Source of the DNA: Bacilli bacterium
Lineage (GTDB): Bacteria; Bacillota_I; Bacilli_A; RF39; UBA660
Length of the DNA: 64,000 bases
Reading direction: 5' to 3'
NCBI GenBank assembly: GCA_017409025.1
Contig: JAFQTN010000001.1
Location: forward strand, 1 to 64,000
Below the pieces are notes generated by a model, which was given only the letters and a program-made list of their open reading frames with translations, was not told the origin of the DNA and ran no database searches. Position 1 is the first letter of the stretch, and each line of letters opens with the position of its first letter. A program made the position numbers and the translations under genes. Shown one piece after another: positions 53,875 to 57,164 of this stretch.

Positions 53875-53979
53875 ATGAATGAAATAAAAGGATTAGAAAG
53901 TAAAAATATAGAAAATATGATATATGAAATAAGGAGTAAGCAAGTAATGCTAGATAGAGAAATATCAGCAACCAAATGA
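53875..53979 (+). pseudogene. 5' fragment of an ORF6N-domain gene
   Basis: Gives 34 residues: MNEIKGLESKNIENMIYEIR then SKQVMLDREISATK and TGA. IYEIRxKQVMLDRE is the start of the ORF6N domain (antirepressor-type, normally continuing DLAxLYxV). The matching rest of an ORF6N protein begins at about 56350 (TTRDLARLYQC). The simplest reading is one gene split by the 2.4-kb AbiF module. It has a good promoter and ribosome binding site. Confidence 0.7.
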
Positions 53980-54190: not shown

Positions 54191-54219
54191 TTGACGATGA
54201 TCATAAATTATGATATGAT
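54191..54219 (+). promoter_or_regulatory. Promoter of the AbiF leader RNA
   Basis: TTGACG (54191-54196), 17 nt, TATGAT (54214-54219). The start point at 54226-54228 coincides with CGATTGGT, the first conserved bases of the small RNA. Confidence 0.8.
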
Positions 54220-54225
54220 TTATAT

Positions 54226-54271
54226 CGATTGGTACTCAGGAAACTTTCGAAGCCCTGAGTCGTTTTTTTTT
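54226..54271 (+). ncRNA. Small hairpin RNA upstream of abiF (copy 1)
   Basis: The RNA would read CGATTGGT, a 7-bp stem ACTCAGG/CCTGAGT, an inner AAACTTTCGAAGC (with a possible CTT/AAG mini-stem), then CG and eight T. The same layout with a covarying stem occurs behind abiF (55178). The T run means most transcripts would end here and only read-through reaches abiF, as in type III toxin-antitoxin loci where an RNA antitoxin precedes an attenuator and toxin. Small RNAs linked to AbiF-family genes have been reported; I cannot check identity here. Confidence 0.75.
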
Positions 54272-54285
54272 AAAGGAAGTGAGTT

Positions 54286-55152
54286 ATGAAAGAATATAAG
54301 AATTCTAATGAATTATTAGATTATATAATATCAAAAGGTGTATCTGTTAATAATAAAGAAGATGCTTTATACAAAATTAAAACTTATTCTTATTATTCAA
54401 TCATAAATACCTATAAAGATGTTTTTAAAAATACTAATAATGAATATAAAAAGAATGTATCTTTTGATGAAATATATGCTTTGTTTGAATTTGATAAAAA
54501 TTTAAGAAGTATATTTCTAAAATATTCATTAGAAATTGAAATGATTTTAAAATCTTTATTAGCAGAAACAATATCTTCAAGATATGGTATAAAAGATTAT
54601 TTAATTAAGGAAAATTTTGATGATATTGTTAATAAAGCAACTATTACTGAATCAATTAATGTTATTGAAGAAGAAATAAATAAACAAAATGGAAAACATG
54701 AAGCCGTTACACATTATATTGATGAATATGGATTTGTTCCACCTTTTGTATTAACTAAAATCCTAACTTTAGGAGAATTAAGTAGATTATATGCTATGTT
54801 AAAACAATCAGATAGACAAAGCATAAGCAAAAACTTTAAATTATCAGATAGAGTGTTAAAACAAATAATTGTAAATATGACAATGATTAGAAATATATGT
54901 GCTCATAATGATAGATTATTTTCATTCCATAGTAAATTTAGAATATCATTTAAATATATTGAGAAAAACTATAATGAAAAATCTGTTAATATTTATATGA
55001 TTATGAAGTGTATGGAAAGTTTATTACCTAAAGACCAGAAAAAAGATTTTGTTAAGTTAATTAATATTGAAATAAAACAATTAAATAGTAAACTTAAATC
55101 AATCAAAATAGATAATATTTTAAATATAATGGGTTTTTATAAGAATAATTAA
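54286..55152 (+). CDS. AbiF/AbiD-type abortive infection protein (Abi_2, HEPN)
   Basis: The 288-residue helical protein matches the Abi_2 family: YSYYSIINTYKDVF, ALFEFDKNLRSIFLKYSLEIE, VPPFVLTKILTLGELSRLYAM. It carries the HEPN ribonuclease motif Rx4H as RNICAHNDR (Arg202, Asn203, His207). Such proteins are proposed RNase toxins that stop growth on phage infection, and HEPN Abi proteins are seen as relatives of Cas13 ancestors. AAAGGAAGTGAG precedes the ATG directly after the hairpin RNA's T run. The flanking small RNAs are the likely antitoxin or cofactor (inference). GC and codon use match the window. Confidence 0.9.
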   Translation: MKEYKNSNELLDYIISKGVSVNNKEDALYKIKTYSYYSIINTYKDVFKNTNNEYKKNVSFDEIYALFEFDKNLRSIFLKYSLEIEMILKSLLAETISSRYGIKDYLIKENFDDIVNKATITESINVIEEEINKQNGKHEAVTHYIDEYGFVPPFVLTKILTLGELSRLYAMLKQSDRQSISKNFKLSDRVLKQIIVNMTMIRNICAHNDRLFSFHSKFRISFKYIEKNYNEKSVNIYMIMKCMESLLPKDQKKDFVKLINIEIKQLNSKLKSIKIDNILNIMGFYKNN

Positions 55153-55177
55153 TTTATTAAAAGTATATAATAATATT

Positions 55178-55214
55178 GATTGGTACTTATGAAACTTTCG
55201 AAGCCATAAGTCGT
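55178..55214 (+). ncRNA. Small hairpin RNA downstream of abiF (copy 2)
   Basis: GATTGGT, stem ACTTATG/CATAAGT, the same AAACTTTCGAAGC centre and CG. Relative to copy 1 the stem differs by two compensatory base-pair changes (C-G to T-A, G-C to T-A), while the loop and flanks are identical. TATAAT at 55166-55171 is placed exactly to start transcription at G55178; no good -35 is visible. A separate terminator follows instead of an immediate T run. Confidence 0.7.
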
Positions 55215-55216
55215 CA

Positions 55217-55248
55217 AATCTCTATGAAATATCGTAGGGATTTTTTTA
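55217..55248 (+). terminator. Terminator of abiF and small RNA copy 2
   Basis: AATCTCTATG and CGTAGGGATT pair with G-U wobbles and run into TTTTTTT. Confidence 0.7.
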
Positions 55249-55264
55249 TTGAAAATACAAACAG

Positions 55265-56264: not shown

Positions 56265-57164
56265 TTGTCCTATGATTACACAAAAAAAAGAAAAGACTAC
56301 CTAAAAATAATGAAATTGATACAATTGTGTCATTTGGTAACTACAAGAGATTTAGCAAGATTGTATCAATGCAAAAACGGAACAAAGACAATTAATCAAG
56401 CTGTAAAACGACATATTAATAGATTCCCAGAAAGATTTATGTTTAAGTTGACGAAAGAAGAATATATTTATATTCTAAGGTCCCAATTTGGGACCTTAGA
56501 ACTAGAACAAGGACAATATAGTAAATATTTACCATATGCATTTACAGAACAAGGAGTAGCAATGTTAGCAACAATCTTGAGGACTGAAGTAGCAGTTGGA
56601 GTAAGCATTTCAATTATGGATGCTTTTGTATTAATGAGAAAATACATATCTACCAATAATTGTGATAACAGAATATCTAATTTAGAAGCTAAATATATTG
56701 AACATGATACAAAAATAAATCAGATATTTAATGCTTTAGAATCCAAAAAGAAAATAAACGAAATATATTTCAATGGTCAAATATATGACGCATATTCAAA
56801 AATATTAAGTATTATTAAAGAATCTCAAGAAGAATTAATAATTATTGATAACTATGCAGACATTACTATCTTAGATATGATAAGTAAAATTAATATACCA
56901 GTAACGCTAATAACAACTAGAAATAATTATCTAACTAAAATAGATATAGAAAAATATAATAGTCAATACAATAATCTAAAAATCATTTACAACAATACAT
57001 TTCATGATAGATATCTAATTCTAGATAATAAAATAATATATCATATGGGTTCTTCTATAAATTATGCAGGAAGTAAAACGTTTTCTATAAATAAACTAGA
57101 AGATAAGATAGTAATAATTTCACTCATAAATGAAATAAAAAAGCATCTAATTAAAGATGCTTAA
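56265..57164 (+). CDS. ORF6N antirepressor-type protein with C-terminal HKD-like domain, probably 5'-truncated
   Basis: The frame holds an ORF6N domain (TTRDLARLYQCKNGTKTINQ, FPERFMFKL, LPYAFTEQGVAMLAT) and a coiled coil. A C-terminal phospholipase-D-like domain follows, with IIIDNYAD, FHDRYLILDNKIIYHMGSS (HxR/K type HDRYL) and SINKLEDK. The beginning before TTRDL does not match the usual IxxIRGxQVMLDR, there is no clear ribosome binding site (TTG 56265 or ATG 56310), and that missing part is found at 53875. So it is probably the 3' part of a split gene. The family is typical of phage and mobile elements. Confidence 0.75.
   Translation: MSYDYTKKRKDYLKIMKLIQLCHLVTTRDLARLYQCKNGTKTINQAVKRHINRFPERFMFKLTKEEYIYILRSQFGTLELEQGQYSKYLPYAFTEQGVAMLATILRTEVAVGVSISIMDAFVLMRKYISTNNCDNRISNLEAKYIEHDTKINQIFNALESKKKINEIYFNGQIYDAYSKILSIIKESQEELIIIDNYADITILDMISKINIPVTLITTRNNYLTKIDIEKYNSQYNNLKIIYNNTFHDRYLILDNKIIYHMGSSINYAGSKTFSINKLEDKIVIISLINEIKKHLIKDA
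56475..56499. repeat. 25-bp perfect palindrome inside the ORF6N gene
   Basis: CTAAGGTCCCAA, a central T and TTGGGACCTTAG form a full dyad within codons for LRSQFGTLE. It is exact over 12+12 bp, far beyond chance at this GC content, and could be an operator, a recombination site or an RNA hairpin affecting translation. Confidence 0.7.

Follow-up and report, generated by a model that had tools for sequence, protein, structure and literature searches.

AbiF genes of gut Bacilli bracketed by two covarying copies of a putative RNA antitoxin

The locus described here is probably a chromosomal AbiF toxin-antitoxin module in which one copy of an RNA antitoxin lies on each side of the toxin gene, the antitoxin role being assigned by homology. 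It lies in the window, by which we mean the whole 64,000-nucleotide stretch of a Bacilli bacterium genome that was analysed (GCA_017409025.1, contig JAFQTN010000001.1, positions 1 to 64,000 of the forward strand), and the same pair of hairpins brackets abiF at 67 other distinct loci, all belonging to one clade of AbiF in gut Bacilli. Most probably, a system of known kind, in which AbiF is paired with an RNA antitoxin, here takes a layout not described before, to the extent that novelty can be judged on partial literature. RNA antitoxins of AbiF have been studied in few systems so far, and AbiF itself is the proposed ancestor of Cas13 (PMC12373285, PMC12737573).

The abiF gene (54286-55152, forward strand, as are all the features of the module) encodes a protein of 288 amino acids that, by its domain, Rx4H motif and predicted fold, is a member of the AbiF/Abi_2 (PF07751) toxin family. 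The PF07751 match (E = 1.1e-42) scores 146.8 bits against a curated cut-off of 25.6, and the PADLOC match is to AbiD (5e-50). A sequence search of the PDB yielded a sole match, 8vz6, the AbiF of a Prevotellaceae bacterium (2.2e-13), and Foldseek, queried with an AlphaFold2 model (pLDDT 93.5), retrieved the same entry, titled 'PbAbiF dimer bound to ncRNA' (E = 8e-11, TM 0.79), as the only match at E<=0.001. The HEPN R-x4-H motif, RNICAH in the window protein (residues 202-207), had already been read as such in the initial annotation, and rightly so: R202 and H207 are invariant in alignment A3 and in 74 clade members.

Upstream of the gene, a sigma-A type promoter (54191-54219; TTGACG at 54191-54196, a 17-nt spacer and TATGAT at 54214-54219) precedes hairpin 1, a 36-nt element (54227-54262) that consists of the 5' tail GATTGGT, a 7-bp stem (ACTCAGG/CCTGAGT, 54234-54240/54254-54260), an AAA/C internal loop, a CUU/AAG 3-bp helix and a UCG triloop. 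The nine T that follow (54263-54271; then AAAGGAAG) would form, together with hairpin 1, an intrinsic terminator or attenuator right in front of the ribosome binding site of abiF. In 44 representative loci, the promoter takes the form TTGACA-17/18-(TGn)TATAAT, with a mean of 10.1 of 12 consensus matches vs 7.7 in shuffled sequences, and a run of at least four T lies within 14 nt after hairpin 1 in 68 of the 69 loci with two hairpins.

The downstream side is built differently. Hairpin 2 (55178-55213, likewise 36 nt; stem ACTTATG/CATAAGT, 55185-55191/55205-55211) is preceded, at a distance of 6 nt, by a TATAAT box (55166-55171) with no recognisable -35 element, and is followed by a separate intrinsic terminator (55216-55247; AAATCTCTATG/CGTAGGGATTT plus a T run) that marks the 3' limit of the module. 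Among 25 representative loci, the downstream -10 box reaches 5.8 of 6 matches vs 4.3 in shuffled sequences, its spacing to the hairpin being fixed at 6 nt, and no -35 element is recognisable (3.0 matches vs 3.5 in shuffles), so that independent transcription of copy 2 is uncertain. Hairpin 2 sits 7-29 nt past the stop codon in almost every clade member for which both flanks are sequenced, and in 66 of 69 loci it is succeeded by its own U-tract or by a separate terminator.

The two same-strand hairpins, with GATTGGT, a 7-bp stem, an identical centre (AAACTTTCGAAGC) and a closing CG, thus lie where the initial annotation had placed them, and its observation that two base pairs had changed together between the copies is borne out. 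Its description of copy 1 as an RNA plus attenuator fits both the order of promoter, hairpin, U-tract and ribosome binding site in those 68 of 69 loci and the organisation of C. difficile RCd22 (PMC12373285). Minor corrections concern the T run after copy 1, counted there as eight, and the -10 boxes: each copy has one, as was claimed, and at copy 2 the distance is the 6 nt given above, not 7-8. When the 1.28-Mb genome was scanned with GATTGGT-N7-AAACTTTCGAAGC-N7-CG, allowing up to three mismatches, only two matches were recovered, both at abiF, against none for the reversed control.

Comparison of 62 distinct hairpins strongly supports the fold. The consensus comprises a 5' tail GANNNGU, a 7-bp stem, the AAA/C internal loop, a CUU/AAG helix that hardly varies, and a triloop; pairing is kept in 99.5% of cells, double changes occur in all seven outer pairs, and the 80 double-change cells compare with 24 in shuffles, the signal being destroyed by sliding or shuffling. 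RNAalifold, unprompted, predicts the same fold. The stems contain on average 4.3 G-C pairs of 7 in the upstream copy and, in the downstream copy, 2.3 at the 56 loci with a separate terminator behind it and 4.8 at the 13 loci where a U-tract adjoins the hairpin itself; stem strength therefore tracks terminator duty. The two copies of one locus resemble each other in the single-stranded 5' tail (similarity 0.88 vs 0.76 between loci), the triloop and nucleotides 35-36 (1.00 vs 0.75), and do so less in the 3' stem arm (0.70 vs 0.68). This pattern of single-stranded agreement fits a shared protein partner, not plain copying, shared ancestry contributing in part to the similarity. Searches for a known identity led nowhere: the Rfam abiF RNA (RF03085) gave no match in the locus at E up to 10, though the phiC2 control was matched at 37.6 bits, and none in 245 Bacillota genomes; a weak match to PyrR (E 0.45) was dismissed as chance. 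With nearly 70 loci in the clade and two covarying copies in each, the hairpins are, by sequence comparison, a new RNA family, absent from Rfam.

Starting from the protein, 80 loci were retrieved from species genomes and, in combination with a motif scan, yielded 69 distinct loci with both hairpins, from which one of a different lineage (L165) and one with another kind of downstream copy (L105) were set apart, leaving the 67 clade loci besides the window. Their AbiF proteins are 46-95% identical to that of the window, and the hosts are uncultured gut Bacilli known as metagenome-assembled genomes (MAGs; record titles 'Tenericutes', 'Candidatus Onthousia' and 'Mycoplasma sp.'). Among full-length clade members sequenced on both sides of the gene, none was seen to miss a hairpin copy, the exceptions being truncated, frameshifted or cut by a contig end. 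The motif is, therefore, enriched beside other Abi_2 genes, one of the findings on which the initial annotation had made its reading depend, and the covarying hairpins represent a structured RNA candidate that adjoins the gene and is conserved with it across these loci. Homology to relatives in other contexts stops with the downstream terminator (55245-55254) and, for several of them, with the upstream promoter as well, so that the transferable unit is promoter-hairpin-abiF-hairpin-terminator.

A more diverged, covarying paralogous two-hairpin AbiF system lies 31 kb away on the same contig, outside the window (85.6-86.6 kb; L033:613-1606). Its toxin gene is frameshifted between MKEYK and SNKELI, and its hairpin 1 carries mutated invariant loop bases (ATACATTAGAAGC); toxin and antitoxin seem to be decaying in parallel there, unless the frameshift is an assembly error. 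Another variant (L279:1301-1475) has two tandem hairpins 3' of abiF, each served by a TTGAC-TATAAT promoter and a terminator of its own, and thus independent putative antitoxin genes.

The initial annotation had left open whether the hairpins are antitoxins or guides, and homology favours the former, the protein fold matching that of an ncRNA-bound AbiF; covariation supports the hairpin structure. The mechanism that we envisage starts with the strong promoter driving hairpin RNA 1, with most transcripts stopping at its own U-tract, a function suggested for the observed layout by C. difficile RCd22; free antitoxin RNA would then be abundant, and abiF would be expressed by read-through only. Read-through RNA would cross abiF and hairpin 2 and end at the terminator of hairpin 2, so that each toxin mRNA would bear an antitoxin element at both ends, and the weak, -10-only promoter may also produce hairpin RNA 2 alone. 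According to PMC12737573, the PbAbiF dimer (8vz6) binds two RNAs, one per monomer; by extension, the AbiF dimer of the window would bind two hairpins, one per subunit, with the HEPN RNase held inactive. The two copies, distinguishable by position, make the question of two RNAs per dimer testable.

The closest known systems resemble the window in parts. The AbiF-AbiFr (PbAbiF) system of Prevotellaceae (Zilberzwige-Tal et al., Cell 2025; via PMC12373285 and PMC12737573) shares with it the HEPN Abi_2 toxin with Rx4H and the fold similarity noted above, as well as an adjacent small structured RNA, with a structural-alignment identity of 18% between the proteins and RNA sequences that are not comparable here. 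No mention of a second RNA copy beyond the gene, such as the window has, was found in these two articles, in keeping with the suggestion, made from the window sequence at the outset, that the two-sided arrangement may be undescribed. The C. difficile AbiF (AbiFCd-RCd22, phage phiC2/phi027) is toxic and is neutralised in cis and in trans by RCd22 (PMC12373285); as in the window, a sigma-A promoter, hairpin RNA, terminator and abiF follow each other, and there are two hairpin motifs per system, with the difference that both motifs of RCd22 lie upstream in one RNA, whereas the window has one hairpin on each side. Furthermore, the phiC2 RNA matches RF03085, unlike the window hairpins, the AbiF proteins are about 29% identical, and a 250-nt up/down comparison detected no downstream hairpin copy at the phiC2 AbiF locus. 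Type III toxin-antitoxin systems (ToxIN, TenpIN, CptIN) have the same order of RNA, terminator and RNase toxin, and the neutralisation of protein by RNA that is proposed for the window, yet differ in the fold of the toxin. Their antitoxins are tandem upstream repeats, and we know of no flanking antitoxin copy in these systems. The window protein is of the Abi_2/HEPN type, not a ToxN/AbiQ-fold RNase; by analogy, the system would work like type III but is no ToxN member.

The direct-repeat layout has left further traces. A covariance model search recovered the hairpin in 70 of 291 genomes of the family and in 92 of 288 in the order, with all listed matches falling within the family. We then considered 103 hairpins in 84 loci, picked with emphasis on unpaired matches, and called a hairpin solo when no abiF fragment lay within 500 nt; 50 of the 103 have no abiF nearby, a proportion that is not a census because the loci were so chosen. 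A classifier of upstream-type and downstream-type flanks, correct for 262 of 263 in leave-one-out assessment, assigned the 5'/3' flanks of the 50 solo hairpins as upstream/downstream in 35, upstream/upstream in 14, downstream/downstream in one and downstream/upstream in none. With a strict cut-off, 23 solo hairpins join an upstream promoter to a downstream terminator, in at least 13 sequence contexts, and in some solo hairpins (L281, L262, L251) the stem itself is a mosaic, with a 5' arm of the upstream type and a 3' arm of the downstream type. Such products would be expected if the hairpin copies, being direct repeats, had repeatedly recombined with each other, deleting abiF and leaving an intact promoter-hairpin-terminator orphan; the event itself and any benefit from it we infer. 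The strict chimeras look functional because their promoter and invariant bases are no less well kept than those of complete loci (promoter score 9.8 vs 9.8; deviations at invariant positions 0.04 vs 0.05), with recency as an alternative to selection. Because nearly all loci are MAG contigs, some of the solo calls may stem from direct repeats having been collapsed in assembly, although every solo locus is flanked by 300 nt or more of contig on both sides and has no detectable abiF.

In the literature search, no report of such excision was found for RNA antitoxins. The nearest parallel is with solo LTRs, where recombination between flanking direct repeats also removes the middle and leaves one hybrid repeat; unlike there, the repeat here is itself the putative antitoxin gene, so that promoter, RNA and terminator all survive the excision intact. 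Antitoxins that stand alone are known from other types of toxin-antitoxin system, and complete, decayed and toxin-less loci form a natural series for the loss of RNA toxin-antitoxin systems. We tentatively raise the possibility, on balance doubtful, that the two-sided layout is adaptive, in that recombination would drop the toxin without killing the cell and always leave a working orphan antitoxin that protects the lineage against AbiF systems met again. If true, this would be a toxin-antitoxin module with a built-in safe exit, used repeatedly across a bacterial family.

Seven of the orphans (L197, L203, L208, L209, L215, L225, L251) lie just 3' of a pyruvate phosphate dikinase-like gene, a possible recurrent insertion site. 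Elsewhere (L105, L194:227-262, L269:1246-1281), the hairpin core (AACCTAGGAAACTTTTGAAGCCCTAGGTT plus a U-tract) occurs without 5' tail or promoter, in two cases directly after a coding stop; here, the antitoxin fold seems to have been reused as an ordinary terminator.

Several other explanations of the hairpins have to be weighed. Perhaps only hairpin 1 is an antitoxin and hairpin 2 serves the abiF mRNA as an element of its 3' end, bound by AbiF to cut or silence its own message or protecting that end. We would not bet on this, even if processing of its own ncRNA has been reported for AbiF (PMC12737573) and copy 2, without a -35 and with the weaker stem, sits shortly after the stop codon and just before the terminator, because the TATAAT box has stayed at a constant distance in an otherwise drifting region and copy 2 shares tail, loop and invariant bases with copy 1.

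Far less probable is that the hairpins form the termini of a mobile gene cassette, akin to recombination sites or MITEs and unrelated to toxin control. Direct repeats do bracket a gene, and the module does occur in different contexts with sharp 3' boundaries and solo copies left behind; however, promoter and terminator lie outside the repeats yet inside the conserved module, the stems covary and their strength follows terminator use, the two copies of a locus agree in their single-stranded parts, binding of such RNAs by AbiF proteins is known, and neither an integrase nor a target duplication was seen. Still harder to credit is the proposal that the hairpins are guide RNAs of an RNA-guided HEPN nuclease, a Cas13-like precursor. 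The proposed descent of Cas13 from AbiF lends it some appeal, but neither a repeat-spacer array nor a guide with a variable spacer was found, a U-tract or terminator directly following the conserved hairpin; the variation falls mostly at paired, triloop and 5'-tail positions; and AbiF is reported to be a non-guided toxin with an RNA antitoxin.

Bracketing of AbiF by hairpins extends beyond the clade. An agnostic comparison of the 250 nt upstream with the 250 nt downstream of AbiF genes, with the reversed downstream sequence of each locus as its control, placed 74 of 181 loci above the control maximum, and this comparison, complemented by inspection, revealed hairpins of other sequence on both sides of AbiF in at least three other lineages, one of them with an inverted copy. 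Different hairpins bracket L047 (27% identity), a layout repeated in L295 (73% identical to L047); in the fecal phage L165, the flanking copies are identical at 65 of 67 aligned nucleotides; and in L134 (1381-1400, 2373-2390), the second hairpin is on the opposite strand, with the same loop, a covarying stem and a U-tract inside the end of abiF. In the tree, L047/L295, L165 and L134 occupy distinct regions of the family. For most of the remaining AbiF loci that were examined (streptococcal, enterococcal, C. difficile), only an upstream RNA was seen. A phage origin of the clade hairpins was considered and dropped, an exact-pattern scan of viral contigs and scans for AbiF relatives there both returning none.

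A few observations concern the surroundings of these genes. Upstream of AbiF in a sister lineage (L030), there are apparently, as judged by eye only, two tandem related hairpins, like those of C. difficile RCd22. Most genomes of the family (L010-L032, L034-L043) have one further Abi_2 gene, about 30% identical and with Rx4H kept, that lacks flanking hairpins and is perhaps a domesticated AbiF; in several genomes, it is followed by an HtrA-type serine protease-like gene. In the window, an ORF6N gene matching the PADLOC candidate defence system PDC-S05 lies downstream of the module (56265-57164), and a short ORF precedes it (53875-53979), where DNA homology reaches into two close relatives.
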